Source: Cyanobium sp. Morenito 9A2 (GTDB lineage Bacteria; Cyanobacteriota; Cyanobacteriia; PCC-6307; Cyanobiaceae). Taken from it: a DNA stretch of 64,000 nt. The first letter of the stretch is position 1, and every line of letters begins with the position of its first letter. The notes under the pieces are model-generated. The model was not told the DNA's origin. It worked only from the letters and a program-made list of their open reading frames with translations, and did not search any database. This document shows positions 4,586 through 62,427 of this stretch, one piece after another. A program made the translations under genes and the position numbers. The stretch spans positions 124,001-188,000 of the forward strand of contig NZ_JAGQBJ010000001.1 in NCBI RefSeq assembly GCF_024345575.1. Direction: 5' to 3'.

Positions 4586-6229
4586 ATGGCGGCGCAGGTG
4601 GTCTGGTTCAAGCGGGATCTGCGGATCCACGACCACGCGCCGCTGCGGGAGGCCGCCGGCCGCGGGCCTGTGCTGCCGCTGTATGTGGCCGAGCCCGAGC
4701 TTTGGTCGTTGCCGGATGCCTCCGGCCGCCAATGGGCGTTCTGCGCCGAAAGCCTCGCTGACCTGCGCGTTCAGCTCGCGGCCCTCGGCCTGCCCCTTGT
4801 GGTGCGCGTCGGTGGGGCGGTGGAGGTGCTGGAGGCCCTGCGCCTGCAGGGGCTGGTGGCGGGCCTCTGGAGCCACCAGGAAACCGGCAACGCCTGGAGC
4901 TACGCCCGCGACCGCCAGGTGGCCGCCTGGGCGCGGGCACGGGGGCTGAGCTGGCGGCAGCTGCCCAGCGGCGGAGTGGTGCGTGGCCTGCATGAGCGGG
5001 ACGGCTGGGCCACGCTCTGGGAGGAGCGCATGGCCCAACCGCTGCTGGAGCCGCCCGCGGCGGTCCAGGCCCAGCTGGCCCTGGCCGGGCTGGAGCCCGG
5101 CCCCCTGCCCAGTTCCGACGATCTGGGCCTGAGGCATGACCCCTGCCCGCACCGTCATCCCGGTGGCCGCCACGAGGGCCTGCGGACCTTGAACAGCTTT
5201 CTGGCTGACCGCGGTTGGGCCTACCACCGCCAGCTCTCCAGCCCACTCAGCGCCTTCGAGGCCTGCTCACGCCTCTCGCCCCATCTGGCCTATGGCACCC
5301 TCTCCCTGCGGGAGGTGGTGCAGGCCTGCCGGGCAAGGCGCCGGACGCTCGGCCAGGCCACAGATCCCGGGACCGCCTCCTGGCGCCGGGCGCTGCGGGC
5401 CTTCGAGGAGCGCTTGCACTGGCACTGCCACTTCATCCAGAAGCTTGAAAGCCAGCCGGATCTGGAGACCACCGAGGCCCACCCCGCCTACATCGGCCTG
5501 CGCCAGAGTGACCCGGCGCGGCTGGCGGCCTGGGCTGAGGGCCGCACCGGCCTGCCGTTCGTCGATGCCTGCATGCGCGCTCTGATCGCCGGCGGCTGGA
5601 TCAATTTCCGCATGCGGGCGATGCTGATGGCGGTGGCCAGTTATCACCTCTGGATTGATTGGCGCGACAGCGGAGCGGTGCTGGCCAGGCTGTTCGTTGA
5701 CTACGAGAGCGGCATCCACTGGAACCAGTGCCAGATGCAGGCGGGAACCACGGGCATCAACACCGTGCGCATCTACAACCCGATCAAACAGGGCCGCGAC
5801 CATGACCCGGACGGCCGTTTCATCCGTCGCTGGCTGCCGGAGCTCTCCGCCGTGCCCGCTGTGCATCTTCATGAAACCTGGACCATGGACGAGGTCACCC
5901 AGGAGCGAGCAGGCTGCCGGCTGGGCCAGGACTACCCCCTGCCGATCGTGGATCCGATGGAGGCGGCCCGGCAGGCGCGGGAGCGGGTCTGGGGCCTGCG
6001 CCAGGGACCGGCTTTCCGCGCCATCGCCAGCGCCATCCACGAACGCCACGGCTCGCGGCGCGGCTCCCGGCGGCGGCGGGATCGAGCCCAGACCGGCTCC
6101 CCACAGACAACGCGAGAGCGCCCAGGTCCACGCCGACAGCCCCAGGGTCACCCCGGCCAGCTCAGCCTCGACCTAGGGGGGGCCTGGGGGGATCCCCTCG
6201 CTGGTGGAGCTGAACCCCAGATCCGATAG
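4586..6229 (+). CDS. Deoxyribodipyrimidine photolyase / cryptochrome family protein
   Basis: A 547-residue FAD protein of the blue-light photolyase/cryptochrome superfamily, which uses light to split UV-induced pyrimidine dimers or to signal. It starts VVWFKRDLRIHDHAPL, the antenna-chromophore Rossmann domain (residues about 1-130). The FAD-binding helical domain contains LSPHLAYGTLSLREV, LHWHCHFIQKLE, GWINFRMRAMLMAVASYHLW and IHWNQCQMQAGTTGIN. The HCHFIQKLE form belongs to a bacterial subgroup distinct from classical E. coli PhrB, so CPD, 6-4 or signalling activity cannot be separated here. The open frame reaches 4148, but the fold begins at the ATG at 4586. The Arg-rich tail after about residue 485 looks disordered. 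Confidence 0.88.
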   Translation: MAAQVVWFKRDLRIHDHAPLREAAGRGPVLPLYVAEPELWSLPDASGRQWAFCAESLADLRVQLAALGLPLVVRVGGAVEVLEALRLQGLVAGLWSHQETGNAWSYARDRQVAAWARARGLSWRQLPSGGVVRGLHERDGWATLWEERMAQPLLEPPAAVQAQLALAGLEPGPLPSSDDLGLRHDPCPHRHPGGRHEGLRTLNSFLADRGWAYHRQLSSPLSAFEACSRLSPHLAYGTLSLREVVQACRARRRTLGQATDPGTASWRRALRAFEERLHWHCHFIQKLESQPDLETTEAHPAYIGLRQSDPARLAAWAEGRTGLPFVDACMRALIAGGWINFRMRAMLMAVASYHLWIDWRDSGAVLARLFVDYESGIHWNQCQMQAGTTGINTVRIYNPIKQGRDHDPDGRFIRRWLPELSAVPAVHLHETWTMDEVTQERAGCRLGQDYPLPIVDPMEAARQARERVWGLRQGPAFRAIASAIHERHGSRRGSRRRRDRAQTGSPQTTRERPGPRRQPQGHPGQLSLDLGGAWGDPLAGGAEPQIR

Positions 6230-7099
6230 CTGGCGCTCGAGATCAAACCGCTGGGGTGGGGCGCCGAAGTTCGCGCATCAATGGAGTCTTGGCCCCCTCT
6301 GGCGCCCGCGGGGGAGAGCCAGACTGTGGTACCAGATTCGCTCAGGGCGGCATCGATCAAGGGCTGGCCCGGTTCGGCGTGGATCCAGCGGGCCAAGCGC
6401 TCCCGTTCCCCGCCCCTGGGGAACGGGCGGTCAGGGTTCCCCTGGGGCTGCGACATCGGCCGGGGTCCCGCCGCTCCCTCCCCGGGGCAACCCCGCGCCA
6501 GAGCCTGGCCTGGAGCATTCACCCCGCGCCCTGATCAAGGCCACGGCCCGCCGCCCAGCGGCGCACCCCGCGAGATCCGGCGCCGCGATGGGGCGCCGAT
6601 CGCCAGCCAGGAAGAGATCTTGGACGTCCTGCGCGGCCGAGCACCGCATCGCCCGTGGCGCGGCTGCACCAGCCCCGCTCGGCTCCGGCGTCAGGCCACG
6701 GCGCACATCGACGAACGTCCAGGGGAGCTCCCGCCGGGTTCGGGCCAGTCGCCAGGGAGCTGGCTGCGGCGGCAGTGCTCTTCCGCCAGGGCCTGCTCTC
6801 CCCAACGCCCCGGGGGCGGAGCACGGGGATCCCCGTTGCGGCGGGGGTCCCGGCCAAGGCCTTCAGCTTTTCGTCGATCAGACTTCGCTGGAGCGCGCAG
6901 GCCATGGGCTGATCGGCCGTTGCGCCCTGAAGCACCACCGGGACCCGCCCCTCGCTCACCCCACGGCCCTTGCCCCTGGCAGGGGCTCGCGAGCACCTGC
7001 GACGTTGTTCGCAGACACAGCCCCGCTGTTCCGGGAAGGCAGCGCCAGAGCGTCCGAGCCGCTTAGCTTCCGACCTTCGCCTGGCCGTCCGCCTCCGCC
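6230..7099. pseudogene. 870-base stretch without an intact gene; possible decayed leftward gene
   Basis: No frame here gives a convincing protein. On the minus strand, protein-like pieces lie in different frames. One reads from 6959 (VVLQGATADQ and ALQRSLIDEKLKALAG), the next around 6600-6770 (RRELPWTFVDVRRGL, then AQDVQDLFLAGDRRPIAAPD) and a third around 6300-6420 (RERLARWIHAEPGQPLIDAA). That order, broken by frame changes, is what a gene with two or more frameshifts would leave. I do not recognise the family. Sequencing error or plain non-coding DNA with chance frames is the alternative; the stretch sits between the photolyase and the nitroreductase. Confidence 0.35.
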
Positions 7100-7768
7100 A
7101 TGACTGTCACCAAAGCCCCGGCCGTCTCCAGCAGTGAGCTGCTGGAGGTGCTGCGCCACCGCTACGCCACCAAAGCCTTCGATCCAAGCCGCCCCATCGC
7201 TGCCGACACCTGGTCCGCCCTGGAGCAGGCCCTGGTGCTCACCCCCTCGTCCTACGGCCTGCAGCCCTGGAAATTCCTGGTGATCACCAACCCCGAGTTG
7301 CGCGCCGAGTTGCGTCAGCACTCCTGGAACCAGTCTCAGATCACCGAGGCTTCCCACCTGGTGGTCTTCCTGGCCCAACGCACAATCGAAGCCGCCGATG
7401 TGGAACGGCTGATCAACGCCACCAGCGCCGCCCGGGGCCTGCCCACCGAATCGCTCGATTTCTACCGGGACCTGATCCTCAAGGATCTGGTGAACGGCCC
7501 GCGCAGCGCCGTGATCAACAACTGGGCGGTCAATCAGGTGTACATCGCCCTGGGTAACTTCCTCACCTCCGCCGCCCTGCTCGGTGTCGACACGACGCCG
7601 ATCGAAGGGTTTTCCCCGACCGACTATGACCGGGTCCTGGGGCTGGAGGGCACGCCTTATCACTCCGCCGTGGTGGCGGTTGCCGGTTACCGCAGCGGTG
7701 ACGACAAGTACGCAGCCCTGGCGAAAGTGCGCTATTCAGCTAATGAGCTGATTCAGCACATTGGCTGA
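7100..7768 (+). CDS. NAD(P)H-dependent nitroreductase-family oxidoreductase
   Basis: A 222-residue FMN-dependent enzyme of the NfsB/FRase I type. Family marks are HRYATKAFDP at the start (FMN phosphate contact, R-x-[ST]-x-[KR]-x-F), LTPSSYGLQPWKF, and the late GVDTTPIEGFSPTDYDRVLG with the P-I-E-G-F motif typical of NfsB-like proteins. Such enzymes reduce quinones, nitroaromatics or flavins using NAD(P)H; the natural substrate cannot be read. It starts at an ATG at 7100. The ParB-like gene begins nine bases after its stop, suggesting co-transcription. Confidence 0.88.
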   Translation: MTVTKAPAVSSSELLEVLRHRYATKAFDPSRPIAADTWSALEQALVLTPSSYGLQPWKFLVITNPELRAELRQHSWNQSQITEASHLVVFLAQRTIEAADVERLINATSAARGLPTESLDFYRDLILKDLVNGPRSAVINNWAVNQVYIALGNFLTSAALLGVDTTPIEGFSPTDYDRVLGLEGTPYHSAVVAVAGYRSGDDKYAALAKVRYSANELIQHIG

Positions 7769-7777
7769 CGCCCCTTG

Positions 7778-8440
7778 ATGGCCCTGCGCCTCCCGCCCTA
7801 CGACCCCCTGCCGCCGCCGCCGCCCCGCACCGATGCCCTGGTGGAGGTGGCGCTGGCGGATCTTCAACCCACCCAACTGTGTGTGGGTCTGGCGGAGGTC
7901 CGCAGCCGACGGGAGGACTTCCGGGCTGAGGACCGCGATCAGCGGCGGGGCTACCTCAAGGAGAAACCCGTGCCCTTGGTGCGCAGCGGCGATGGGGGCC
8001 TATGGATGGTGGATCGCCACCACCGCCTGCGGGCGCTGATCGAACTCGATCCCACCGCCAGCACCTTTGGCTATGTGGTGCTGCAGCTCAAGGAAAGCGA
8101 GCGCCAGGAGGTGCTCGCGGCCCTGCATCTGCGGGGCTGGCTTTACTTGTTCGATGGTCGGGGCCGGGGCCCCCTGGCGCCGGCCGCGCTGCCCACTCGC
8201 CTAGAGGAGTTGCAGGACGACCCCTACCGCAGCCTGGTCTGGAAGCTCAAGCGCGAGGGCGTGATCGCCCCGGCTCCTTTGATTCCTTTCCATGAATTCC
8301 GCTGGGGGGCCTGGCTGCGCAGCCGCCGGCTGCCCCCGTTCAGCTCCGAGCGACTCGACCCCGCCCTGCCGGCGGCCCGGGCCCTGGCCCGTTCCTCCTC
8401 AGCGGCTCAACTGGCCGGATGGCAGGGGACTGGGATCTGA
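7778..8440 (+). CDS. ParB-like (ParBc_2) domain protein
   Basis: A 220-residue protein matching the ParB/Srx-fold group often annotated as a putative ParB-like protein. It has LADLQPTQLCVGLAEV, an invariant lysine-containing KPVPLV strand and the WMVDRHHRLRALIEL motif (about residues 79-93), followed by a C-terminal FHEFRWGAWLRSR region. These proteins share the ParB N-terminal fold but lack a DNA-binding helix-turn-helix, so chromosome partitioning should not be assumed; several relatives are nucleotide- or phosphate-dependent enzymes. A TTG at 7775 directly precedes the ATG I chose. Its 3' end overlaps the convergent zinc-ribbon gene by 42 bases. Confidence 0.75.
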   Translation: MALRLPPYDPLPPPPPRTDALVEVALADLQPTQLCVGLAEVRSRREDFRAEDRDQRRGYLKEKPVPLVRSGDGGLWMVDRHHRLRALIELDPTASTFGYVVLQLKESERQEVLAALHLRGWLYLFDGRGRGPLAPAALPTRLEELQDDPYRSLVWKLKREGVIAPAPLIPFHEFRWGAWLRSRRLPPFSSERLDPALPAARALARSSSAAQLAGWQGTGI

Positions 8441-8722
8441 GGGCAGCGGCATCCGGGAGGGCAGGGCCGCCAGCAGCGCAGCGAGGGCCAGCACGGCCAC
8501 AAGCCAGGCCCAGGGGGGGACCCCCTGGGGGGAGCGACGGGCCAGCCGAGGGCTCCGCCGCCGCGCCATCGCTGTGGTCCGCGGGCCGCCGAGCGGAGTG
8601 CCGCAGCGTCCACAGACCATGCGACCGGCCAGGCTGCGATCCCGCCTGACCGACCAACTTCCGCATTGGGGGCAAGACACGCGACCGTCTGCGCTGACCC
8701 CACCAGTCTGAACACTCGCCAT
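8399..8722 (-). CDS. Small zinc-ribbon protein with a C-terminal membrane helix
   Basis: A 107-residue protein with two CxxC pairs near the N-terminus (CPQCGSWSVRRDRS..MVCGRCG), a typical zinc ribbon, then a basic linker and a C-terminal hydrophobic helix (PPWAWLVAVLALAALLAALP). The arrangement suggests a tail-anchored protein. The start is the ATG at 8722, immediately before the ribbon; the longer open frame antisense to the phosphoribosyltransferase is not credible. No function is known. It overlaps the 3' end of the ParB-like gene and is divergent from the phosphoribosyltransferase with 36 bases between the starts. Confidence 0.68.
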   Translation of the reverse strand: MASVQTGGVSADGRVSCPQCGSWSVRRDRSLAGRMVCGRCGTPLGGPRTTAMARRRSPRLARRSPQGVPPWAWLVAVLALAALLAALPSRMPLPSDPSPLPSGQLSR

Positions 8723-8758
8723 GCTGGGGTGAAGGTGAAGCCCCAAGGGGCCGCCGCC

Positions 8759-9436
8759 ATGGACAGCCGCCGCGCACTCTGGAGCGATCGAGCCTCGGCC
8801 GGCCGGGCCCTGGCACTGCGCCTGGGGGCCTGGAGCGATCACCCCGAAGCCGTTGTGGTGGGCTTGCCCCGGGGTGGGATGGCGGTGGCCGCCGAGGTGG
8901 CCCGGGCGCTGGACCTGCCCCTGGAGCCCTGGGCCGTGCGCAAGATCGGCCATCCTCTGAACCCGGAATGGGCGATCGGCGCCGTGGCCCCGGGCGGGGT
9001 GCTGCTCTGGGACCCGTGCGCCCGCTCTGATCTGGCCCTTGCCCCCTCGCTGGAGCTAGCGCTCGTCGGCGAGGAGCGCCGCGAGCTGGAGCGGCGTCAG
9101 AGGGTCTTCGGCGATCCTCCCGCAGCGGCACTGCAGGGGCGTCCGCTGATCGTGGTCGATGACGGGGTAGCGACGGGGCTGAGCGTGCGAGCAGCGCTGC
9201 AAGCCCTCGCCAGGCTGGGCCCCGGACGGTTGATCTTGGCGGTGCCCGTGATCGATGCGGCCCTGGCGAAGGACCTGGCGCCATTGGTGGACGAGCTGGT
9301 CGCCCTGGCGAGGGTGAGGGATCTGCGGGCGGTGGGGGAGCACTACCGCCAGTTCGAGCAACTCAGCGACGCCGATGTGCACCGCGTGCTGGAGACGGCA
9401 GGCAGACTTCAGCGACCCCGCGCCTTGCCGCCGTGA
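8759..9436 (+). CDS. Phosphoribosyltransferase-domain protein
   Basis: A 225-residue type I phosphoribosyltransferase-fold protein. The PRPP-binding signature PLIVVDDGVATGLSVRAAL lies at about residues 130-148, and the N-terminal VVVGLPRGGMAVAAEVARAL with PLEPWAVRKIGHP is typical of the stand-alone group found beside many unrelated genes. The substrate base is unknown, and some relatives are fused to hydrolase domains. It starts at an ATG at 8759. Its stop overlaps the GTG start of the YccF gene by four bases, so the two are translationally coupled. Confidence 0.85.
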   Translation: MDSRRALWSDRASAGRALALRLGAWSDHPEAVVVGLPRGGMAVAAEVARALDLPLEPWAVRKIGHPLNPEWAIGAVAPGGVLLWDPCARSDLALAPSLELALVGEERRELERRQRVFGDPPAAALQGRPLIVVDDGVATGLSVRAALQALARLGPGRLILAVPVIDAALAKDLAPLVDELVALARVRDLRAVGEHYRQFEQLSDADVHRVLETAGRLQRPRALPP

Positions 9437-9867
9437 TTCGCTCGTTGCTCAACCTGCTCTGGTTCGTGCTGGGCGGCTTTGTGATGGGGCTGGGCTGGTG
9501 GCTGGCGGGGCTGCTGGCGGCGGTCACGATCGTGGGGCTCCCCTGGGCCCGGGCCTGCTTCGTGATCGGCAGCTTCTCGTTTTTTCCCTTCGGCAAGGAG
9601 GCCGTCAGCCGCCTGGAGCTGACCGGCCGGCGCGACCTGGGCACGGGCCCGCTGGGGTTCATCGGCAACGTGATCTGGTTCCTGGTGGCCGGCCTTTGGC
9701 TGGCGATCGGTCACCTGACCTCCGCCCTGGCCTGTTTCGTGACGATCATCGGCATCCCCTTCGGCTGGCAGCACCTGAAGCTGGCGGTGATCGCCCTGGC
9801 GCCAATCGGCGTCACCGTGGTGCCCGTAGGCGCCGGTGCCCCTGCAGGGGCCCTAACCAGACCGTGA
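9433..9867 (+). CDS. YccF-family (DUF307) inner-membrane protein
   Basis: A 144-residue protein of two similar halves, each with hydrophobic helices followed by a G-[IL]-P-[FW] turn: VTIVGLPWARACF and VTIIGIPFGWQHLKLA. The N-L-x-W-F-V-L-G-G-F start and the FPFG segment match YccF, an inner-membrane family with no established function. The start is a GTG at 9433 overlapping the previous stop. Its last 56 bases overlap, tail to tail, the CPBP protease gene; the C-terminal GAGAPAGALTRP tail is probably dispensable. Confidence 0.85.
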   Translation: MIRSLLNLLWFVLGGFVMGLGWWLAGLLAAVTIVGLPWARACFVIGSFSFFPFGKEAVSRLELTGRRDLGTGPLGFIGNVIWFLVAGLWLAIGHLTSALACFVTIIGIPFGWQHLKLAVIALAPIGVTVVPVGAGAPAGALTRP

Positions 9868-12364
9868 CCACCAGCCAGTGGATCAGCAGCGGCGGCCAGA
9901 GCGAGCCGCTGAGGTTGTAGGCGGAGATGCAGACCAGCCCCAGCAGGGTGCACTGCACCAGGAACCGGGGGTTGTGGAACACCCCCCGGGCCTCGGGATA
10001 CCAGGTGCGCTCCGCCAGGGGGTGATAGATCACGAACAGCCCCAGGCCCAAGGCCCCCCAGGCGAGGGTGCCCCAGGGGCCCTCCCCCTCCAGGGGATGG
10101 GGCAACAGGGCGACGCGAAACAGCAACTCCTCCAGCAGCGCGGGCATCAGCAACCAACCAAGGGAGCGTCGCAGCAGCGGGAGCGGCGGCCCCCAGCGCA
10201 GCTGCTCATTCAGGAAACCGGAGCGGTACCCCAGGGTCAGGGCCACCAGGGCGTAGGGCACCAGGAGCAGCAGGGTCAACGCCACGGTCCACCCGCCGGT
10301 GGGGGCGAACAGGGCATCGACGATCCGGCGCAGCAGGGTGGCCACGGGGGGGAGCTGGCCCAGCAGACCGGTGGGGGCCAGGGGAGCGAGCCGCCCGTCG
10401 CCACCGGGGATCTGATTGGTGCGCACCACATGCAGCTGGGCGCCATGGGCAAGGAACAGCCGGGCCAGGTCGTCGTGGCCGCGCCGCGGCAACACCGTGC
10501 GCCAGCTCAGCAGGGTCTCGCGCAGGCCGGTATGGCGACGGAAGGCGGCACCCTGATCGCTCCCCTGGGCCGCCTGATCCACCAGGGCCCCGTTGCGCCG
10601 CCAGTCGGCGCGCATCTGGCCGAAGGGCGTGAGCAGGCCATCGAGGGAGTGGGTGAGCTGGTCCAGGGCCGCGATCCGTCTGGTCTCAGGGCTTGAAAGG
10701 GATCCTGAGCTGCGGCCAGGGCGGGGGACGGAGGCCAGCCGCTGGCGCAGGCGCTCCACGGCAATCGCCAGGGCCTGGCTGGAATCCTGCACACAGGAGA
10801 TCGCCGCCCCCACCCCGTTGAAGCCAGTGCCGTCGCCACTGCGGTAACGCGCCATCAACACCTCGGCCTGCAGTTGCAGTTCCAGCAGCAACGACAACGG
10901 CTGGGCGCCTGACCGGGGCCCCGGGCCAGTGGGCTCATCGAACAGATCCAGCTTGACCAGCAGATCCGAGAAGGGCCGGGTGCCCAGCCAACCCCGGCGC
11001 AGGTCACCGGCATAGGCGCTCCAGTCCTGGGTGCCCGCGACGATCCCGTCGGGATTGTTGGCGTAGATCTGGTGGTAGTGCAGGGCGAACTGCGGCTCGC
11101 CGGTGAACGGGTCGCGCACCACCTCCGCCTCACCGAAGGCGAAGTGACCGGTGACGGTGAAGAAGGGCACGGGCTCCGCCTGGGGGCCACCGATGCCCCC
11201 GAAGGTATGGATCACCAGGCCGTGGTCCCCCAGCCGCCAGGGAAGCGGCGCCGTCGGGGCCAGCTCCACCCGCGAGTAGCTGCCGCGTTGGAGCGAGGCG
11301 GGGGACCAGTTGTCGCGCTGCAGGTGCCTGAGGGCGGCGCCAAGGCCCCGCCGTTCCCGGTCGGTCCTGAGCTGAAAGAGGGCGCGGGGGCGCAGGGCCT
11401 GAACGGTGAACAGCCCTGTGGCATCGGGGGATCCGTAGAGGTACCAGCCCTGCGCGCCGATCGGATGGCTCGCCACACCCCGGGGGCTGGACATCCAGCG
11501 GCCATAGCGGTTGGGGGGCTGCTGGGGAATGCGCACGGTGGTGATCGGACCGCTGAACGCCCCCCGCTGGCGGTCGTAGTGCTGCACCCGGAAGCGATCG
11601 GAGGACGCACCACCGGCCGCCGCTGGCGCGGGGCCCAGGATCCGCACCAGGGCCATCCAGCGACCGGTGGTCTGGATCGGCGGCCGGCCGATGCGCAGGG
11701 AAGGGGCCTCCCCAGCTGCAGCCGCCACTTCCACCTCCTCGAGCTCCACGGTGATGTCATCGCGGGGGCGGGCCCCGGCCAGGGATTGCAGCGGCCCCAC
11801 CTGCCGGCGGCCATTGAGGCGCAGGGGCACGACGTTGCCATCGCTGCTGGCGGCGCGGGCGGCGGCATCCAGGCGGATGTCGGTGGTGACGGCGCGCACG
11901 AGCCGGCTCAGGCGGGGGTCGTCCGTCCAGCTCAACCGCAACCGCTGGCCCCGCAACGGCGCCAGCGCCGCGGGGGTTTGCTCCAGTTCGATCCAGACCC
12001 AGTCTTCACCGGGAGCGTCCGGGGCCTGGGCGAGCTCCTGCTCGCTGGGCAGGATCAGGCGACCGAGCCAGTCGGCATGGGGACGGTAGAGGGCTGGATC
12101 AGGGCGCAGGCCCAGGGGGTAGTGGGCGCTCTGGTTGAACGGAGCTCGTTCACTGAGCGCCTCACTGGAGAGCGGTGAGGGAGCGGTGGGGGTGCCGAGC
12201 TGCGGGGAAGCGGCCCCCGACGCCAGGGCGGGGCTGACCAGGGCAGCGAGTGCCAGGGCCAGGGCCAGGGACAACGCCAGCCAGGCCGAGAACCGCCGCC
12301 GCCCGATCGCCGTCCGATTCGTCGCGGGATCAGCTCCGCCCACCAGCACCACCGACCTCACCAC
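9812..12364 (-). CDS. CPBP-family intramembrane protease with a large exported N-terminal region
   Basis: An 850-residue protein. A signal-like helix (about residues 24-48, ending ALA) is followed by some 600 residues of soluble, presumably periplasmic sequence. This region contains FTVTGHFAFGEAEVVRDPFTGE and a helical block with ISCVQDSSQALAIAVERLRQ. A C-terminal group of membrane helices then carries the CPBP (CAAX protease/abortive infection) motif LLMPALLEELLFRVAL and the second FVIYHPLAERTWYP histidine region. CPBP proteases are glutamic-type membrane peptidases. The start is a GTG at 12364, overlapping the stop of the aspartic protease upstream, so the two are coupled. The family is usually 200-300 residues, so the exported part is unusual. 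Confidence 0.8.
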   Translation of the reverse strand: MVRSVVLVGGADPATNRTAIGRRRFSAWLALSLALALALAALVSPALASGAASPQLGTPTAPSPLSSEALSERAPFNQSAHYPLGLRPDPALYRPHADWLGRLILPSEQELAQAPDAPGEDWVWIELEQTPAALAPLRGQRLRLSWTDDPRLSRLVRAVTTDIRLDAAARAASSDGNVVPLRLNGRRQVGPLQSLAGARPRDDITVELEEVEVAAAAGEAPSLRIGRPPIQTTGRWMALVRILGPAPAAAGGASSDRFRVQHYDRQRGAFSGPITTVRIPQQPPNRYGRWMSSPRGVASHPIGAQGWYLYGSPDATGLFTVQALRPRALFQLRTDRERRGLGAALRHLQRDNWSPASLQRGSYSRVELAPTAPLPWRLGDHGLVIHTFGGIGGPQAEPVPFFTVTGHFAFGEAEVVRDPFTGEPQFALHYHQIYANNPDGIVAGTQDWSAYAGDLRRGWLGTRPFSDLLVKLDLFDEPTGPGPRSGAQPLSLLLELQLQAEVLMARYRSGDGTGFNGVGAAISCVQDSSQALAIAVERLRQRLASVPRPGRSSGSLSSPETRRIAALDQLTHSLDGLLTPFGQMRADWRRNGALVDQAAQGSDQGAAFRRHTGLRETLLSWRTVLPRRGHDDLARLFLAHGAQLHVVRTNQIPGGDGRLAPLAPTGLLGQLPPVATLLRRIVDALFAPTGGWTVALTLLLLVPYALVALTLGYRSGFLNEQLRWGPPLPLLRRSLGWLLMPALLEELLFRVALLPHPLEGEGPWGTLAWGALGLGLFVIYHPLAERTWYPEARGVFHNPRFLVQCTLLGLVCISAYNLSGSLWPPLLIHWLVVTVWLGPLQGHRRLRAPR

Positions 12365-14905: not shown

Positions 14906-16054
14906 GTGGCCGTCGCTCCCCCTTTCCCGCTGAGGGCCGCCGCCGGTGGCGGTGATCTGCTCCTGCGCCAGCTGTTCGACGTCGACACCGGCACCTACAC
15001 CTACCTGCTCGCCGACGTGGGGGCCCGTGAGGGGGTGCTGATCGATCCAGTGTTCGAGCAGCACGGCCGAGATCTGGCCCTGATCGAAGAGCTGGAGATC
15101 GATCTGGTGGCCTGCCTCGACACCCACGCCCACGCCGACCACATCAGCGGCGCCTGGCTGATGCGCCAGGCCACGGGTTGTGCCATCGGTTTGGCGGCCA
15201 AGGTGCGCGCCAGCAACGTCACCCAGCCCTTGGCCGATGGCGACCGGGTGCGCTTCGGCGGCCGCCACCTGGAGGTACGCGCCACCCCGGGCCACACCGA
15301 CGGCTGTCTCAGCTACGTGCTCGACAACCTGAGCCTTGCCTTCACCGGTGATGCGTTGCTGATCCGCGGCTGCGGACGCTGTGATTTCCAGCAGGGCAAC
15401 CCCCACAACCTCTACCGCTCGATCACCGAGCAGATTTTTTCACTGCCGGAGACCTGCCTGCTCTACCCCGGCCACGACTACGCCGGCCGCTGCGTCAGCT
15501 CGGTGGCGGAGGAACGGGCCTACAACGCCCGCCTGGGGGGCGGCGCCGACGAGCGCGACTTCGTCGGTTCGATGGAGAACCTGCACCTCCCCCACCCCCA
15601 CCGCATCGCCCTGGCCCTGCCGGCGAATCTGCGCTGCGGAGAGCCCCTGGAGACGGCCAGCGGAGCGGACGACCAGGACGACTGGGCGCCGATCCGGCAC
15701 AGCTACGCCGGGTTGCCGGAGCTGATCCCTGAGTGGGTGGCCGCCCACCGCTCAGCCTTCAACCTGGTGGATGTGCGTTCAGCCGAGGAGTACGACGGCC
15801 CCGATGGCCACATTCCCGGAAGCCAGCTCATTCCCCTGCCCGATCTGGAAGCCCGCAGCGCGGAAATACGCAGCGATCGCCCGACGGTGGTGCTCTGCCA
15901 TTCCGGCAGCCGCTCGGCCCTGGCCACCCAGCAGCTGTCCAAGGCTGGCCTGCGGCAGGTGGCCAACCTGCGCGGTGGCCTGAGCCGTTGGAAGGCGGAG
16001 GGCTATCCGGTGGAGAGCGGTGCAGCGGAGTCCGCCGGTTCGCCTCAGCGGTAG
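14906..16054 (+). CDS. Persulfide dioxygenase (ETHE1-type) fused to a rhodanese domain
   Basis: A 382-residue two-domain enzyme. The metallo-beta-lactamase domain (residues about 15-235) has the metal motif LDTHAHADHISGA, the ATPGHTDGCLSYVLDN strand and the late LLYPGHDYAGR histidine, as in ETHE1-like persulfide dioxygenases that oxidise glutathione persulfide to sulfite with O2 and iron. The rhodanese domain (about 270-375) has DVRSAEEYDGPDGHIPGS and the catalytic cysteine in VVLCHSGSRSALA. Such fusions are known in bacteria and handle sulfide and persulfide detoxification. The start is a GTG at 14906. It converges with pstS and overlaps its 3' end by 10 bases. Confidence 0.88.
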   Translation: MAVAPPFPLRAAAGGGDLLLRQLFDVDTGTYTYLLADVGAREGVLIDPVFEQHGRDLALIEELEIDLVACLDTHAHADHISGAWLMRQATGCAIGLAAKVRASNVTQPLADGDRVRFGGRHLEVRATPGHTDGCLSYVLDNLSLAFTGDALLIRGCGRCDFQQGNPHNLYRSITEQIFSLPETCLLYPGHDYAGRCVSSVAEERAYNARLGGGADERDFVGSMENLHLPHPHRIALALPANLRCGEPLETASGADDQDDWAPIRHSYAGLPELIPEWVAAHRSAFNLVDVRSAEEYDGPDGHIPGSQLIPLPDLEARSAEIRSDRPTVVLCHSGSRSALATQQLSKAGLRQVANLRGGLSRWKAEGYPVESGAAESAGSPQR

Positions 16055-17133
16055 GCGGGTCGCTTGGTTTGGGCGAAGCTGCGCCGGATCGCCTCACCGA
16101 CGCTCAGGCCGATCGGAAGTTCACCGCCGAAAGAAGTGCCTGTGATCTGGCGGTAGAGCTTGGCTTCCACCACCTGATTGGTGCTGCCCGGCAGGGGAAT
16201 GAACCGTGCCTTCTCGACCAGTTGGGTGTCGTTCACCAACAGGAAACCGATGAAGCGCCGCAGCAGGTCTAGTTCCTTCAGCGCCCGATCGTTGACATAG
16301 ATGAACAGGAGTCTGGAGAGCGGTTGGTAGCTGCCATCCAGCAAGCTCTCCGGCGACGGGGCCACCGCTCCCTGACCCGCCTGAACCTTCAGGGCGCGCA
16401 AGCGCTGGGCATGGGCGGCATACCAGCCAAAACCGAGATAGCCCAGGGCATCCGGGTCCTTGGCCACACAGTTGACCACCACATTGTCGTCTTCACTGGC
16501 GGTGTAGTCGCGGCGTGAATCGGTGGCAGATCCGTTGATCGCTTTATTGAAGTAGTCGAAGGTGCCGGAATCGCTACCCGGCCCGCAGAGTCGGATCGGG
16601 CGCGCGGGCCACTGGGGGTTGACCTGATTCCAACGCAGGATGCGGCCCTGGGCGCGTCGCTGCCACAGCCGGGAGAGCTCCTGGGTGGTGATCGCCTGGG
16701 CCCAGGTGTTGCGTGGGTTCACCACCACGGTGAGGGCATCAAAGGCCAGGGGCAGCTCGAAGAAGCGCACCCCTTTCTGGTCGCAGGCCTTGAGTTCAGC
16801 GGAGCTGATCGGCCGCGACGCATTGGCCATCGGCACCCGGCCAGCGCAGAGATCACGCAGGCCGCCGCTGGTGCCTGATTCCACCAGATCAAAGCGAGAT
16901 CCCTTGCCCGCCTCCGTGCGCTGGAAGGCAGCGATGGCAGCCTGGATGATCGGATAGACCGTGCTCGAACCGGTGATGCGCACCGTGCGGGACTTGGCCT
17001 GTTGCGCTTGGGCTGGCTGAATCGGCGCGAGCGGTGCGAGCAGGGCCAAGGCTGTGGTGGCGATCAGACCCGTGGCAGCAGCGACGCGACCGGAATGGCG
17101 GCCGGGTGAGGAGGGGCGACGGAAGCGAAGCAT
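16045..17133 (-). CDS. pstS: PstS-family periplasmic phosphate-binding protein in the arsenic island
   Basis: A 362-residue exported protein. A basic N-terminus and hydrophobic segment end at QPAQAQQA (signal cleavage about residue 42). The mature part starts with the phosphate-loop pattern VRITGSSTVYPI, followed by LVESGTSGGLRDLCAG and RLCGPGSDSGTFDYFN, all phosphate-contact regions of PstS/SphX. No pstC, pstA or pstB accompanies it. The ATG at 17133 was preferred to a GTG at 17160 because the signal peptide begins normally there. Upstream lie a Pho-box-like tandem repeat and a perfect ATCAA-N6-TTGAT site, so control by both phosphate and arsenic is inferred. PstS discriminates phosphate from arsenate, which would suit the arsenic genes beside it. 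Confidence 0.85.
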   Translation of the reverse strand: MLRFRRPSSPGRHSGRVAAATGLIATTALALLAPLAPIQPAQAQQAKSRTVRITGSSTVYPIIQAAIAAFQRTEAGKGSRFDLVESGTSGGLRDLCAGRVPMANASRPISSAELKACDQKGVRFFELPLAFDALTVVVNPRNTWAQAITTQELSRLWQRRAQGRILRWNQVNPQWPARPIRLCGPGSDSGTFDYFNKAINGSATDSRRDYTASEDDNVVVNCVAKDPDALGYLGFGWYAAHAQRLRALKVQAGQGAVAPSPESLLDGSYQPLSRLLFIYVNDRALKELDLLRRFIGFLLVNDTQLVEKARFIPLPGSTNQVVEAKLYRQITGTSFGGELPIGLSVGEAIRRSFAQTKRPAYR

Positions 17134-17168
17134 GGGACGGGAGGGCACCAGCCTCCTCACCCTGATTG

Positions 17169-17184
17169 ATCAAATGCGATTGAT
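17169..17184. promoter_or_regulatory. ArsR operator upstream of pstS
   Basis: A perfect ATCAA-N6-TTGAT inverted repeat, identical in both half-sites to the two between arsR and the GAPDH gene. From memory, this is the motif reported for ArsR of Synechocystis. It lies 35 bases upstream of the pstS ATG, between that start and the Pho-box repeat, a position suited to a repressor. Confidence 0.75.
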
Positions 17185-17203
17185 GGTTTAAGGACGGTTT
17201 AAG
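17185..17203 (-). promoter_or_regulatory. Pho-box-like tandem repeat upstream of pstS
   Basis: In the pstS direction the 8-mer CTTAAACC occurs twice with an exact 11-base period (17203-17196 and 17192-17185), and a weaker third unit (4 of 8 matches) precedes it at 17214-17207. Cyanobacterial Pho boxes are tandem TTAA-containing octamers with three-base spacers, so the layout fits SphR/PhoB binding, although the bases after TTAA depart from the published consensus. It abuts the ArsR site. Confidence 0.6.
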
Positions 17204-17220
17204 TCTTGGTGAACCCTGCC

Positions 17221-18303
17221 TCAGGCCAAGCGCTGGAGGCGCCGCCGCAGCGCCAGCGAGAGGTAAACGAGGCTCACCAGCGCCGGCACCTCGATCAAGG
17301 GCCCGATCACCCCCGCCAGGGCCTGACCGGAGCTGACCCCCCAGACGCTCACACTCACAGCGATCGCCAACTCGAAGTTGTTGCCGGCGGCGGTGAAGGC
17401 GAGGGTGGCGGTTTTCTCGTAGCTCAGGCCGCTGCGCCAACCAACGGCGAATGCCACCCCCCACATGATCGCGAAGTAGAGCAGCAGGGGGATCGCGATC
17501 ACCACAACGGTCAGCGGCCGAGCCGTGATCGCCTGACCCTGCAGAGCGAACATCACCACAATCGTGAACAGCAGCCCGTAGAGGGCGAAGGGGCTGATGA
17601 ACGGAATGAAACGGCGTTCGTACCACGCCAGGCCCCTGGTGCGCAGGCCGATGCGCCGCATCAGATAGCCCACCACGAGCGGGACCCCCAGAAACAACAC
17701 CACGGCCCCGGCGATCGCCCCGATCGAGAAGCGCACCTCCTGGGTGTCAAGGCGAAGCCAGCCCGGCAGCACCTTGAGGTAGAAGCTGCCCAGCAGGGCG
17801 TAGGCCAGCACCTGCACGATCGAGTTGATCGCCACCAGCAGGGCGGCGCCCTCCCGGTCGCCCTGGGCCAGGTCAATCCAGATCAGCACCATGGCGATGC
17901 AAGGGGCGATCCCGATCAGGATCAAGCCCGTTCGGTACTCCGGTTGCTGGGGGAGAAACAACCAGGCCAGGCTGAACATCAGGGCCGGGCCCAACACCCA
18001 CACCAGCAGCAGCGAGAGCCGCAGCAGCGTGCGGGTGCCTGGGCTGAGCCTCCCGCCAGGGCAGCCCATCTCCTCGTAGCGAACCTTGGCCAGCACCGGC
18101 ACCATCATCACCAGCAAGCCCAGGGCGATCGGCAGGGAGGTCGTACCGATCCTCACCGCATCCAGCGCTCCCTGCAGGCCCGGCACCAGGCGACCAAGCA
18201 GCAAACCGCCAGCCATCGCCAGCAAAATCCAGAGCGGCAGAAAGCGATCGAGGGCCGACAACCGGGCCAGCACGGGGTCTGTATCCACGGATCGGTGGGG
18301 CAT
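17221..18303 (-). CDS. acr3: ACR3-family arsenite efflux permease
   Basis: A 360-residue, ten-helix membrane protein that expels arsenite (trivalent arsenic) using the membrane potential. It starts [20 protein letters not shown], has [21 protein letters not shown], and carries the essential helix-4 cysteine in [16 protein letters not shown] (about residue 135). [20 protein letters not shown] late in the chain is another ACR3 hallmark. Length and motifs fit the bacterial ACR3 group. It lies 24 bases downstream of arsR in the same direction and is presumably derepressed together with it. pstS follows 87 bases after its stop, with its own control region. Confidence 0.92.
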
Positions 18304-18327
18304 TTCGGTAAACAGAGGGGAGATGCT

Positions 18328-18660
18328 TCAGCCGCAGGAGGGCGCGCTGGCGCCACAGCGGCTGGCCAGATCGGCCAACCAGGAGCGCAGGGCTTCCAGG
18401 GCGACCGGCTCCAGGCGGTAGTAGATCCAGCGGCCCTCCTGGCGGTCAGCCAACAGCCCCGCCTCCTTGAGCACCTTGAGGTGAAAGGAGAGCTTGGACT
18501 GGGCCAGATCGAGCTCAGATGTGAGGTCGCAGACGCACTTCTCGCCATGGGCGAGGGCTTCGATCACACGCAAACGCAGGGGATCGGCGAGGGCCTTGAG
18601 CAGGGAACGGGCCCGGTCGGACTGGAGCGCAGGGGACGCGGCGGGCAGGGACACCGTCAT
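18328..18660 (-). CDS. arsR: ArsR/SmtB-family arsenic-responsive repressor
   Basis: A 110-residue winged-helix repressor. [20 protein letters not shown] leads into [23 protein letters not shown], the helix-turn-helix, with the metalloid-binding cysteine pair C42 and C44 exactly as in the classical ELCVCDL form. Two further cysteines (C102 and C109) close to the C-terminus could supply a third ligand. The start is the ATG at 18660. Two ATCAA-N6-TTGAT sites lie immediately upstream; the nearer one overlaps the likely ribosome site GAGGAG, so autorepression is expected. It heads the arsR-acr3 unit. Confidence 0.93.
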
Positions 18661-18662
18661 TC

Positions 18663-18696
18663 ATCAACTCCTCTTGATCAATCAAGCAGATTTGAT
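18663..18696. promoter_or_regulatory. Paired ArsR operators in the arsR / GAPDH divergent promoter
   Basis: Two perfect ATCAA-N6-TTGAT sites at 18663-18678 and 18681-18696, separated by two bases and 18 bases apart centre to centre. Their junction also forms CTTGATCAATCAAG (18673-18686). They lie in the 84-base gap between the divergent arsR and GAPDH starts and can repress both directions. The arrangement of two repeats matches my recollection of the Synechocystis ars operator. Confidence 0.82.
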
Positions 18697-18744
18697 CTAG
18701 GTTACGGCCGCTGGTCACGGCCGCCACTCCTCCGCTTTGCTTCC

Positions 18745-19818
18745 ATGCGCCTCGGCATCAACGGCTTCGGCCGCATCGGCCGCCTGGTGTTCCGTGCACT
18801 CTGGGGCCGCCCTGGAATTGAGCTGGTGCACGTCAACGACCCGGCCGGTGATGCCGCCACCGCCGCCCACCTGCTCGAATTCGACTCCGTGCATGGCCGC
18901 TGGCCCCAGGCGGTGCAGGCCGACACCGACGGCGAAGCGGATGGCTTTCGGGTGGCCGAGCTGCCGGTGAGCTGGAGCCGCCACAAGGATCCCAGCGCCG
19001 TGCCCTGGCTGGCTGCCGGCGTGGACCTGGTGCTCGAGTGCAGCGGCAAATTCAAAACACCCGAAACCCTCGAGCCCTACTTCAGTGCGGCGGGCCTGAA
19101 GCGGGTGATCGTGGCCTGCCCGGTGAAGGGGGTGATCGCCGGCGAGGAGGCACTGAACATAGTGTTCGGCATCAACCACCGGCTCTACAACCCCAGCCGC
19201 CACCGCTTGCTCACCGCCGCCTCCTGCACCACCAACTGCCTGGCACCGGTGGTGAAGGTGGTGCACGAGAGCTTCGGCATCCGCCACGGCTCGATCACCA
19301 CGCTGCACAACATCACGGGCACCCAGGTGGTGATCGACAGCTTCAAATCCGACCTGCGCCGGGCCCGCTCCGCCACCAGTTCGCTGATCCCCACCACCAC
19401 CGGATCGGCCAAGGCGATCGGCCTGATCTTCCCGGAATTGCAGGGCAAGCTCAACGGCCATGCCGTGCGGGTGCCTTTGCTCAATGCCTCGATCACCGAT
19501 GCGGTGTTCGAGCTGGAGCGCGCGGTGAGCGCGGAGGAGGTGAACGGCGCCTTTGCCGCTGCTGCCGCCGGAGCGCTGCAGGGAATCCTGGGCTACGAGG
19601 AGCGGCCGCTGGTGTCGGTCGATTACCTCAACGACAGCCGCAGCTCGATCGTCGATGCCCTCTCCACGCTGGTGACGGGCGGCACCCAGCTCAAGGTGTT
19701 CGCCTGGTACGACAACGAGTGGGGCTACAGCTGCCGCCTGGCGGATCTGGCCTGCCACGTGGCGGCGCTTGAACTTGCTGGCCCGGCGGCCGCGGCCGAA
19801 CACGGTGCCGTTGCATGA
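18745..19818 (+). CDS. ArsJ-associated glyceraldehyde-3-phosphate dehydrogenase
   Basis: A 357-residue GAPDH. It has the NAD fold [19 protein letters not shown] at about residue 31, and the catalytic cysteine C161 in [28 protein letters not shown] closes the chain. In ArsJ systems this enzyme uses arsenate in place of phosphate to form 1-arseno-3-phosphoglycerate, which ArsJ exports. The pairing here, with a four-base overlap to arsJ and divergence from arsR, argues for that role rather than glycolysis. The region around [18 protein letters not shown] differs from housekeeping GAPDHs. The open frame continues leftwards to 17206 antisense to acr3 and arsR, but the protein starts at the ATG at 18745. 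Confidence 0.9.
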
Positions 19819-21071
19819 AACAGCTCACCGGGCTGCAGCAATACGCGATCGTCACAGCCAATTACTGGGCCTTCACCCTCACAGACGGGGCGCTGCGCAT
19901 GCTCGTGGTGTTCCACTTCCACCAGCTGGGGTACACCACCCTGGAGATTGCTTTTCTGTTTCTGTTCTACGAATGCTTCGGCATTCTCACCAACCTCTAC
20001 GGCGGCTGGCTGGGGGCCCGCTTCGGGCTGCGGCTCACGCTCTGGGCGGGCACGTTGCTGCAGGTGGGGGCCCTGCTGATGCTGATTCCCGTCGCCGAAG
20101 GCTGGCCGCGCTGGTGGAGCGTGGCCTACGTGATGGTGGCCCAGGCGATCAGCGGCATCGCCAAGGACCTCAACAAGATGAGCGCCAAGAGCGCCATCAA
20201 GACCGTGGTGCCGGAAACTCCTGCTGATCCCAACAGAGGCGAAGCCCAGCTGTTCCAATGGGTGGCGATCCTCACCGGCTCCAAGAACGCCCTCAAGGGA
20301 GTGGGCTTCTTCCTGGGCGGGGTGCTGCTCGCCACGGTCGGCTTCAATGCCGCCGTGGCGGCGATGGCCGGTGGGCTGTTCCTGGCGTTTCTGGTCACCC
20401 TGGTGCTGCCCGGTGAGATCGGCCGCATGAAGGAGAAACCGGCCTTCACGGCCCTGTTCTCCAAATCGAAGGGCATCAATGGGCTCTCAACGGCCCGCTT
20501 CTTCCTGTTCGGCGCCAGAGATGTGTGGTTCGTGGTGGCCTTGCCGGTGTTCCTGCAGACCACCCTCGGTTGGCGCTACTGGGAGGCGGGCGGTTTCATG
20601 GGCCTCTGGGTGATCGGCTACGGGATCGTGCAGGGCTCCGCCCCGGCCCTGCGGCGCTGCTGGGGGCAGAGCGCTCCGCCGGGGGTGTCCGCCGTGCAGT
20701 TCTGGAGCGCCGTGCTCACGGCCATTCCGGCCCTGATCGCCGTGGCGCTCTGGCGGGAGGTGGCCCAGCCGGGGGTGGCGATCGTGGTGGGTCTGGCCGC
20801 CTTCGGCGTGGTGTTCGCGATGAATTCCTCGATCCACAGCTACATGGTGCTGGCCTACACCGACGCCGAATCGGTGAGCCTCAACGTGGGCTTCTATTAC
20901 ATGGCCAATGCCGCCGGCCGGCTGGTGGGCACCCTGCTCTCCGGTGCCCTGTTCCTGGTGGGCGGCCTGCAGGCCTGCCTGTGGTGCTCGGCGCTGCTGG
21001 TGGCTCTCTCCTGGCTCTCCAGCCTCAGACTGCCCGCCACCCGTTCAATGGTTGCTGCGTCCCATGGTTGA
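19815..21071 (+). CDS. arsJ: ArsJ organoarsenical efflux permease (MFS)
   Basis: A 418-residue major facilitator transporter with about 11-12 helices. It begins [20 protein letters not shown], then [17 protein letters not shown]-like helices and the loop [20 protein letters not shown], all recognisable from ArsJ proteins. ArsJ exports 1-arseno-3-phosphoglycerate made by the GAPDH encoded just upstream, giving arsenate resistance without arsenate reduction. The ATG overlaps the GAPDH stop (ATGA). It lies in the divergent unit controlled by the paired ArsR sites. A small two-helix protein overlaps its 3' end by eight bases. Confidence 0.9.
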
Positions 21072-60454: not shown

Positions 60455-61576
60455 TCAGCCGCCGCGGGGGAGCAGGAGATCCATCACAGCACCCCCCTCC
60501 GCATGGTTACGACCCTGCACCCGTCCGCCGTGGGTGACGGCGATCTGTTGCACGATCGCCAGACCCAAGCCGCTACCGCCCCGCTGGCTGCGCTCCCTCG
60601 AGGGATCACCCCGGTAGAAGCGCTCGAACATGCGTCGCTCGTCCTCCTCGCTGAGTCCACCGCCGTGGTCGCGCACACTTAGCAGCCACCAGTTGCCGCT
60701 GGGCTGCACGCTCACCTCCACGGCGGCCGCATCGGGGCTGTGGCGAAGGGCGTTGTCGAGCAGGTTGAGAAGGGCCCTGTGCAGCCTTGAGCCATCCCCC
60801 CGCAGCGCGGCAGCCGCCGGGGCGCTCAGCTGCAAGCTGATCTCCCGGCGCTCGGCCAGGGGGGCGAGGCTGGCCCAGGCGGCCGTCACCAGCTCTGAGA
60901 GATCCAGGCTGGTGTAACGCCCCCCCTCCCGGTGCAGGGTGTTCTCCAGGCGCGAGAGCTCCAGCAGATCGTTCACCAGCAGCTGCAGGCGGTCCAGCTC
61001 CCGCTGCAGCCGTTGCACCAGCACACCGTTGCGGCCCTCCAACTGGCCGGCCAGGCTGTCCCCCACCAGGCGCAGGGCGGTCAGGGGTGTGCGCAGCTCA
61101 TGGGCCACGTCGCTGACCCAGCGCTCCTGCTGCTCCAGCTGGGCCTCCAGGGAACGGCGGCTCTGGAGCAGCACACCCACCCAGCCGTCTTGACCTGGCA
61201 GAGCATGGGCTTCCAGCGGTTCGCCCCCCTTCATCCAGTCGACGCGCTGGGGACGCCCCAGGCGGCGGGCGTCGAGCACCACCTCCAGCAGCTCCGGAAT
61301 CTCCATGGCGTCGGCCAGGGGCACGCCGCGGCGCAGGCGGTCACTGGGTTGCTGCAGCAGCCGCCGGGCCCGGGGATTGACGTACTGAATCGTGGTGAGC
61401 GGATCGAGCACCAACCACCCCTGGGGGGCGGCGTCAATCCAGTCGAGCACCTGGGAGGGCGGCAGGGGCCGCGGACCCTGGTGCTCGGAGCCGCTGCCGC
61501 GGAGACGCCAGGGGAGCAGCCTGGCCAGCAGCCAACCCAGCCCCAGGCCAACGGCCAGGGTCAGGGGGTCAGCCAC
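60455..61576 (-). CDS. phoR: Sensor histidine kinase, PhoR/SphS-like
   Basis: A 373-residue kinase with one N-terminal membrane helix (ADPLTLAVGLGLGWLLARLL), a PAS domain (about 43-140) and the phospho-acceptor H159 in WVSDVAHELRTPLTALRLVG, followed by LLNLLDNALRHSPD and GGSGLGLAIVQQIA. One short anchor, PAS and HisKA/HATPase with no sensor loop is the PhoR/SphS architecture. The GTG at 61576 overlaps the response-regulator stop by eight bases. Phosphate sensing is inferred from architecture and partner. Confidence 0.8.
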   Translation of the reverse strand: MADPLTLAVGLGLGWLLARLLPWRLRGSGSEHQGPRPLPPSQVLDWIDAAPQGWLVLDPLTTIQYVNPRARRLLQQPSDRLRRGVPLADAMEIPELLEVVLDARRLGRPQRVDWMKGGEPLEAHALPGQDGWVGVLLQSRRSLEAQLEQQERWVSDVAHELRTPLTALRLVGDSLAGQLEGRNGVLVQRLQRELDRLQLLVNDLLELSRLENTLHREGGRYTSLDLSELVTAAWASLAPLAERREISLQLSAPAAAALRGDGSRLHRALLNLLDNALRHSPDAAAVEVSVQPSGNWWLLSVRDHGGGLSEEDERRMFERFYRGDPSRERSQRGGSGLGLAIVQQIAVTHGGRVQGRNHAEGGAVMDLLLPRGG

Positions 61577-62291
61577 CGATGTCGAAGCGGTAGCCGAAGC
61601 CCCGCACGGTGAGGATGTGGCGGGGGGCGGAGGGGTTGATCTCCAGCTTTTCGCGCAGCCAGCGGATGTGCACGTCCACGGTCTTGCTGTCGCCCATGAA
61701 ATCAAGTCCCCAGATGCGCTCCAGCAACTTGTCGCGGCTCCAGACCTGGCGCGGATGGCGCATGAACAACTCCAACAGCCGGTACTCCTTGGGGGAGAGG
61801 TTGAGGGCGACCCCGTCGCGGGTGACCCGGCATTCATCGGGGAAGAGGCGAATCGGCCCGTGTTCGAGCACCCGCTGGAGGGCCGGGGCCTCAGCGACTC
61901 CAGGCTCCACCTGGGAGCGACGCAGCAGGGCGCGACAGCGGGCCACACACTCACGGATGCCGAAGGGTTTGATCAAGTAGTCGTCAGCCCCCACCTCCAG
62001 ACCGAGCACCCGGTCGGTTTCACTGTCCCGGGCGCTCACCACCAGAATCGGGGTGCGGTCGTTGCGTTGGCGCAGCTGGCGGCAGAGCTCCAAGCCGCCA
62101 AGACCCGGAAGCATCAGATCAAGCACGATCAGATCAAAGCGGGGGGCGCCAGTGGGCGCTTGGATCTGCTCGAGGGCCTGGCGGCCGTTGGCACAGACCG
62201 CCACATCGAAGCCCTCCAGCTCCAGGGCCTCAGCGATGGTTTCACGGATGGTGTCGTCGTCCTCGACCACCATCAGTCGCGGAGCGCTCAC
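61569..62291 (-). CDS. phoB: OmpR-family response regulator, PhoB/SphR-like
   Basis: A 240-residue regulator. The receiver domain has VVEDDDTIRETIAEALELEG, acceptor D58 in DLIVLDLMLPGLGG, and GADDYLIKPFGIRE. The winged-helix DNA-binding domain has LSPKEYRLLELFMRHPRQVW, VDVHIRWLREKLEINP and ILTVRGFGYRFD. The sequence resembles cyanobacterial SphR/PhoB as I remember it. The start is a GTG at 62291. It heads the unit phoB-phoR-pseudouridine synthase-RodZ-like and could act on the Pho box at 17185-17203. Confidence 0.78.
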   Translation of the reverse strand: MSAPRLMVVEDDDTIRETIAEALELEGFDVAVCANGRQALEQIQAPTGAPRFDLIVLDLMLPGLGGLELCRQLRQRNDRTPILVVSARDSETDRVLGLEVGADDYLIKPFGIRECVARCRALLRRSQVEPGVAEAPALQRVLEHGPIRLFPDECRVTRDGVALNLSPKEYRLLELFMRHPRQVWSRDKLLERIWGLDFMGDSKTVDVHIRWLREKLEINPSAPRHILTVRGFGYRFDIGG

Positions 62292-62427
62292 GGCAAGGGG
62301 GCTGGCTGTTTGGAGCCATTCTCCTGGCTGATGACGGTGATGACCGACACCAATGGAACCGGGCTTGGAGTCAGCCCTTTGTTTGGTGGTAATTTACGAA
62401 ACCTAAAGGGTTCCTTATTCCCCGCCC

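Follow-up and report, generated by a model that had tools for sequence, protein, structure and literature searches.

The arsenic-resistance cluster described here lies in a 64,000-nucleotide stretch of DNA from Cyanobium sp. Morenito 9A2 (below, "the window" always means the whole of that stretch), and the coordinates of its parts are collected in Table 1. On the minus strand arsR, acr3 and pstS follow one another, while on the plus strand the gene for the ArsJ-associated GAPDH adjoins arsJ to make up an arsenate detoxification cluster, both of these genes scoring over their curated cut-offs. On reading its sequence, the arsR product contains a CVC motif, which we take to have an As(III)-binding role. 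The first-pass annotation of this DNA, made from the letters alone, called the pstS gene solitary, and rightly: it starts with an ATG at 17133 and is flanked by acr3 and by a gene for a metallo-beta-lactamase/rhodanese fusion, with no pstCAB adjoining. The fusion gene (14906-16054) is convergent with pstS, and this neighbourhood is kept in the nearest relative found (G051). Two further PstS genes elsewhere in the genome belong to another family (TIGR00975), and a search of the genome at E 1e-30 found no second PstS of the TIGR02136 type. A search of the 87-nt gap upstream of pstS gave no terminator-like site; since arsR, acr3 and pstS also share one strand, read-through could give an arsenic-inducible pstS even without a composite promoter.

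Table 1. Genes and promoter features of the window discussed in the text.
Feature	Position	Strand	Basis or remark
pstS	16045..17133	-	TIGR02136-type phosphate-binding protein; subfamily-level score over curated cut-off
Probable -10 hexamer CAGGGT	17159..17164	-	20 nt past last octamer; presumed
Predicted ArsR-type operator ATCAA-N6-TTGAT (ATCAAATGCGATTGAT), pstS promoter	17169..17184		exact match
Proximal Pho octamer CTTAAACC, touching operator	17185..17192	-	exact match; kept in relatives
Distal Pho octamer CTTAAACC, 11-bp period	17196..17203	-	exact match
Third, degenerate octamer GTTCACCA, same 11-bp register	17207..17214	-	sequence reading; presumed
acr3, arsenite efflux transporter	17221..18303	-	TIGR00832, over cut-off
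arsR, repressor	18328..18660	-	NF033788 (subfamily), over cut-off
ArsR-type operator between arsR and gapdh	18663..18678		form match
Second ArsR-type operator between arsR and gapdh	18681..18696		form match
ArsJ-associated GAPDH gene (gapdh)	18745..19818	+	NF033735, over cut-off
arsJ, organoarsenical efflux MFS	19815..21071	+	NF033734, over cut-off
PhoR/SphS-like kinase beside regulator	60464..61468	-	best families PnpS and PhoR, below cut-off
PhoB/SphR-like response regulator, candidate activator	61584..62369	-	TIGR02154, below cut-off

The feature of main concern is the element in the pstS promoter, where a pair of octamers, CTTAAACC-GTC-CTTAAACC on the minus strand from 17203 to 17185, abuts the predicted operator with zero gap. 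Much of this anatomy had been claimed in the first-pass annotation, namely that the site is a perfect ATCAA-N6-TTGAT, identical in form to both sites in the arsR-gapdh intergenic stretch, that it abuts two exact repeats with an 11-base period, and that the operator is the nearer of the two to the pstS start with the octamers farther out; exact matching and the coordinates of Table 1 bear out each of these points. The two exact octamers are joined by a presumed, degenerate third, where a full SphR box would have three repeats or more. The operator is likely to be of the ArsR type because it has the same form as the footprinted Synechocystis ArsR site, DNase I footprints of that protein being described as covering two repeats of ATCAA(N)6TTGAT (Lopez-Maury 2003, as cited in PMC4585019). 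Similarly, the octamers are likely to be a SphR/PhoB box because they resemble in form the SphR box of cyanobacteria, for which Su et al. (2007, PMC1906773) give CTTAACCT octamers in tandem, 3 bp apart; those of the window are likewise tandem 8-bp TTAA octamers separated by 3 bp.

Chance expectation was assessed for each part separately. Operators with at most one mismatch were expected 0.31 times in the 64-kb window and found three times, a count reached in 1 of 100 shuffles. For an octamer pair with up to three mismatches the expectation was 0.05; the window has one, and 5 of 100 shuffles produced one. The 3.1-Mb genome as a whole has just three copies of the operator form, each of them in the ars cluster (backward control, one place), and the strict pair TTAAMC-N5-TTAAMC occurs once, at the pstS promoter (backward control, none). 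Scans of other genomes for the joint pattern gave a match in 45 of 400 genomes of the family, with two backward-control matches among those listed, and in 40 of 339 genomes of the class (49 matches against 31 for the backward control, by hand count); a looser pattern was matched in 52 of 291 genomes of the phylum, at 60 places among the matches listed against 32 for the control, again counted by hand. As many as 64 of the 72 loci obtained from the joint-pattern scans contained none of six window proteins, implying that most matches in AT-rich genomes are due to chance or to other promoters. In the class the joint pattern as such is barely enriched, and it is only its placement that is informative: within 30 loci from the class scan, seven matches lie no more than about 350 bp upstream of pstS and two lie upstream of gapdh-arsJ. 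One match, in genus g25, was discounted, as on inspection by eye it points at a dnaK-like gene and the pst genes are on the opposite side.

Conservation was examined most closely in the window's family (Cyanobium/Synechococcus), where a PstS search of 151 genomes was positive in 74 and gave 79 matches; one of these is the window's own, 10 were left out and L161 had no usable row, and 68 pstS genes were scored. A pstS gene was counted as ars-adjacent if no more than 700 bp separated it from an ars gene, and operators were accepted with 0-1 mismatch. On this basis the operator is present at all 15 ars-adjacent pstS genes and at 5 of the 53 others (Fisher p = 3.5e-11, a value that ignores shared descent and, as the rows do share descent, overstates the association). 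All 15 ars-adjacent pstS promoters, and 18 of the 20 that bear the operator, have a TTAA 6-7 nt ahead of it; these are the fair counts to quote, given that the "joint" label of these 18 promoters is itself defined by the position of the TTAA. In the family loci every one of the 21 gapdh promoters and 19 of the 20 arsR promoters have an operator too, and a TTAA at that distance occurs at 0 of 21 and 0 of 20 respectively (at many loci the two share a single intergenic stretch). The first-pass annotation had proposed, as a check, that the paired site should be sought in relatives, and it is indeed kept there, at fixed spacing, at every ars-adjacent pstS.

Alignment of 15 family promoters (three near-copies dropped), all preselected as having no more than one operator mismatch, shows nine of the ten arm positions to be invariant and the tenth to be A, T or G, with the N6 carrying 0.03-0.60 bits; the octamer and a downstream TCAGG-like stretch are also conserved. 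In several relatives (L101, L111, L113) the distal octamer is degenerate. Three of the five non-adjacent operator-bearing promoters (L115, L119, L123) have the fused element at pstS with no ars gene in the stretch examined and arsR elsewhere in the genome, and L206, from a MAG of Synechococcus UW140 that shares its PstS clade with L142, has an operator without an adjacent octamer. These data bear on the idea that only the Pho box is functional, the palindrome being a chance match or the site of some other SmtB-type repressor. Such an explanation could draw on the operator matches at 5 of 53 non-adjacent family pstS genes, among which L148 and L159 have operators unjoined to an octamer that may be fortuitous; however, the confinement of all three operators of the genome to the ars cluster, the presence of one at every ars-adjacent pstS and the near-invariance of its arms make us regard it as very hard to credit.

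The layout of the ars-adjacent loci matters for the question of read-through. In 10 of the 15 cases pstS either comes first or converges on arsJ or acr3, so that it is not downstream of arsR or acr3 on one strand and would need a promoter of its own. This argues against the proposal that ArsR bound before pstS serves mainly as a roadblock to transcripts reading through from arsR and acr3; the collinear layout of the window, L094, L097, L100 and L142 would suit that proposal, which we nevertheless consider highly improbable. L094 (G051:C3) and L097 (G051:C1) both come from the nearest relative, which has two ars clusters, each with a joint promoter; in one of them no acr3 was found and pstS directly follows arsR.

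Beyond the family, a sample of 100 loci (L331-L430) from other members of the class, with 111 pstS genes, the strongest among the matches listed, was scored. An alternative count of 141 genes was set aside because it mixed in 27 hand-picked loci (30 genes), many of which had been selected because ars genes or operators were present; four of the 27 are Synechococcus/Cyanobium. In the sample 33 of the 37 ars-adjacent pstS genes have the operator, as do 11 of 15 lying farther away and 8 of 59 with no ars genes in the stretch. Automatic Pho scoring yielded ten joint promoters outside the family, of which four were kept as clear, with 4-5 nt between the octamer and the operator that follows it: L218 (a Xenococcaceae MAG), L253 (a Coleofasciculus MAG), L345 and L352. 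The remaining six (L240, L267, L268, L274, L376, L405) were discarded for their weak Pho match. A fifth outside-family joint promoter, L288, has a Pho pair, TTGACA and operator together. Two loci, L341 (G661:C1) and L335 (G670:C1), contain runs of several closely spaced pstS genes of the TIGR02136 type (their genomes gave five and four matches, respectively, among those listed).

As to how such promoters might work, their geometry is the most direct guide. Among the alignable family promoters, 14 of the 17 joint ones and 37 of the 46 others have a [TC]ANNNT starting 19-20 nt past the last octamer, so that joint and Pho-only promoters appear to be built on one common core, with the predicted operator filling the gap. 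Outside the family, 28 of the 52 pstS promoters that bear the operator have a TTGACA (0-1 mismatch) 0-3 nt ahead of it; not one of the 18 joint family promoters does (p = 1.6e-5). Of 33 matches of this TTGACA type (hand-picked loci included), 32 have their best TATAAT-like hexamer 16-18 nt downstream, which places the operator in the spacer. The best reading of these patterns is that the Pho box fills the -35 position and that the predicted ArsR site plugs the spacer before the -10. A Pho box in the -35 place would favour AND over OR logic. In the first-pass annotation the promoter was proposed to be an AND/OR integrator: its two-site anatomy stands, supported by the conserved pairing, while the choice that it left undecided now leans towards AND on the strength of the 0 of 18 for TTGACA.

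The alternative that most needs weighing is an OR or additive promoter, in which both sites are real and the -10 alone suffices, so that loss of ArsR would induce pstS without SphR. This is how the TTGACA-type pstS promoters common in other cyanobacteria would be expected to behave, L288 has all three elements in one promoter, and in Agrobacterium the ArsR1 control of pstS1 is reported to be phosphate-independent, and hence not of AND type (PMC7965956). For the joint promoters of the family, however, the lack of a TTGACA -35 speaks against it, and we consider it unlikely. No sigma-70-like pair was found in 17000-18800 either, which says little, as the same scan missed the arsR and gapdh promoters too.

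Similar elements occur at some gapdh-arsJ promoters. In 9 of the 21 in the family (L101, L105, L107, L111, L127, L133, L141, L152 and L158) a Pho pair ends 1-2 nt before the operator, and in the other 12, which look like a stronger type, a TANNNT directly follows it; the window's own gapdh promoter is of this latter kind, with two operators. In L077 (1498-1575), and also in L092, both g18 genomes, a CTTAAATA-tag-CTTAAATA pair between arsR and gapdh is followed, after roughly 15 nt, by two operators of the ArsR type and a TATAAT-like hexamer; this is possibly the joint element with another spacing in small-genome relatives.

A quick PstS tree of 106 of the 209 rows gives some idea of the history. 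On it the joint state calls for 8 changes, at least 5 of these being forced by well-supported branches, and for 4 within the family, it being understood that change counts on the tree cannot separate gain from loss. Phylogenetically independent pairs link ars adjacency with the operator mostly in one direction, far from significance (7 pairs overall, median p 0.25; 3 pairs for the family only, p 0.5). The window's group (the window, L094, L097 and L100) is nested among pstS genes that have octamers and no operator, suggesting that the operator was gained there, while the joint genes outside the family are mostly found among operator-bearing ones, which suggests that in their case it was the Pho box that was gained. 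Whether composite AND promoters arose several times, by addition of the operator in the family and of the Pho box elsewhere, and in part of the family also at gapdh-arsJ, is a matter on which we are nearly evenly divided, doubt having a slight edge.

The same nesting could be read in another way, the octamers being relics of a Pho-only ancestor and pstS being regulated by arsenic alone, partly through read-through. Besides the octamers without operator in the nearest PstS relatives, degenerate distal octamers in some joint promoters and the collinear arsR-acr3-pstS of the window agree with this. What makes it rather improbable in our view is that the proximal octamer and its spacing are kept at all 15 ars-adjacent pstS genes, that the window has two exact octamers, and that Pho pairs recur both in the nine gapdh-arsJ promoters and, joined to the operator, at the four clear pstS loci outside the family.

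We think it likely, then, that the element is the composite promoter of an arsenic-regulon pstS, with a SphR/PhoB box serving as -35, ArsR in the spacer and AND logic. The repressor would be encoded by the neighbouring arsR. A candidate for the activator is the response regulator encoded at 61584-62369, which narrowly leads the 21 TIGR02154 matches of the genome and shares 63% with a PhoB-like gene near the joint pstS of L113; the kinase gene beside it shares 53% with a kinase gene of that same locus, and both genes of the pair are under every cut-off. In L113 itself (G098:C1, locus 6052-10184) the joint-promoter pstS, arsR and a PhoB-like/PhoR-like pair stand in a one-strand row, linking both presumed regulators to their shared pstS target.

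Under this scheme phosphorylated SphR/PhoB would bind the tandem TTAA octamers in the -35 place and recruit RNA polymerase to a weak -10 some 20 nt downstream, while ArsR bound to the ATCAA-N6-TTGAT in the spacer would block the polymerase sterically. Arsenate would be converted in the cell to As(III), which would release ArsR, so that pstS would most probably be transcribed strongly under phosphate shortage with arsenic present in the cell, to the presumed advantage of phosphate over arsenate uptake.

Arsenate enters cells through phosphate transporters, with the greatest harm to be expected when phosphate is scarce, and such scarcity is common for small cyanobacteria. A promoter answering to two signals would show how cells settle the conflict between arsenate and phosphate at a single site; it would explain why pstS is placed in ars clusters, and could provide a natural arsenic-AND-phosphate sensor. 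The cyanobacterium of the window and its relatives can thus probably couple phosphate capture to arsenic danger, and if gapdh-arsJ promoters in part of the family are composite as well, arsenate defence would there itself be conditional on phosphate shortage.

The first-pass annotation knew of no description of such a joint element, and a search of the open-licence literature likewise found no earlier account of a fused ArsR/Pho element; there are nonetheless precedents for its parts. The Synechocystis arsBHC operator has the same ATCAA-N6-TTGAT form as that of the window, there as two direct repeats before arsBHC (PMC4585019), and the five genes that Synechocystis ArsR is reported to control include no pstS in the account given in PMC4010505. 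The Pho-box paper of Su et al. does not use the words arsenic or arsenate in its main text, and its statement that four picocyanobacteria have no conserved tandem boxes counts against our preferred explanation. For Nodularia under phosphorus limitation, RNA-seq is reported to show a weak response of ars-linked SphX/PstS (log2 0.75 and 1.21; PMC9846622). Halomonas HAL1 resembles the present case in having a PhoB box on an arsenic gene, and differs in that the gene concerned is an arsenite oxidase gene, aioBA, with no ArsR operator mentioned in the description available (PMC4563254, described in PMC7533571). Closer is Agrobacterium tumefaciens 5A, where ArsR1 represses pstS1 and phoB1 (Kang 2012, 2016; PMC7965956, PMC7533571, PMC4415409): there too a pstS close to ars genes is the target of an arsenic repressor and also of PhoB, whereas the motifs differ and are mostly placed at least 100-150 nt upstream, the controlled unit is a pst/pho/phn operon with phoB divergent to pstS rather than a lone pstS, and the organism is an alphaproteobacterium. 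Arsenic co-regulation of ars-linked cyanobacterial PstS was proposed by Huertas et al. (2014, PMC4284471) for the same neighbourhood as in the window (PstS, Gap3, MFS, ArsB, ArsR), with no pstS operator, Pho box or composite promoter described in the portion of that article dealing with it. Control of pstS by ArsR in Agrobacterium, and the proposal of an arsenic-regulated pstS in cyanobacteria, are thus already in print, and what is new here is the fused, spacing-locked ArsR/Pho element.
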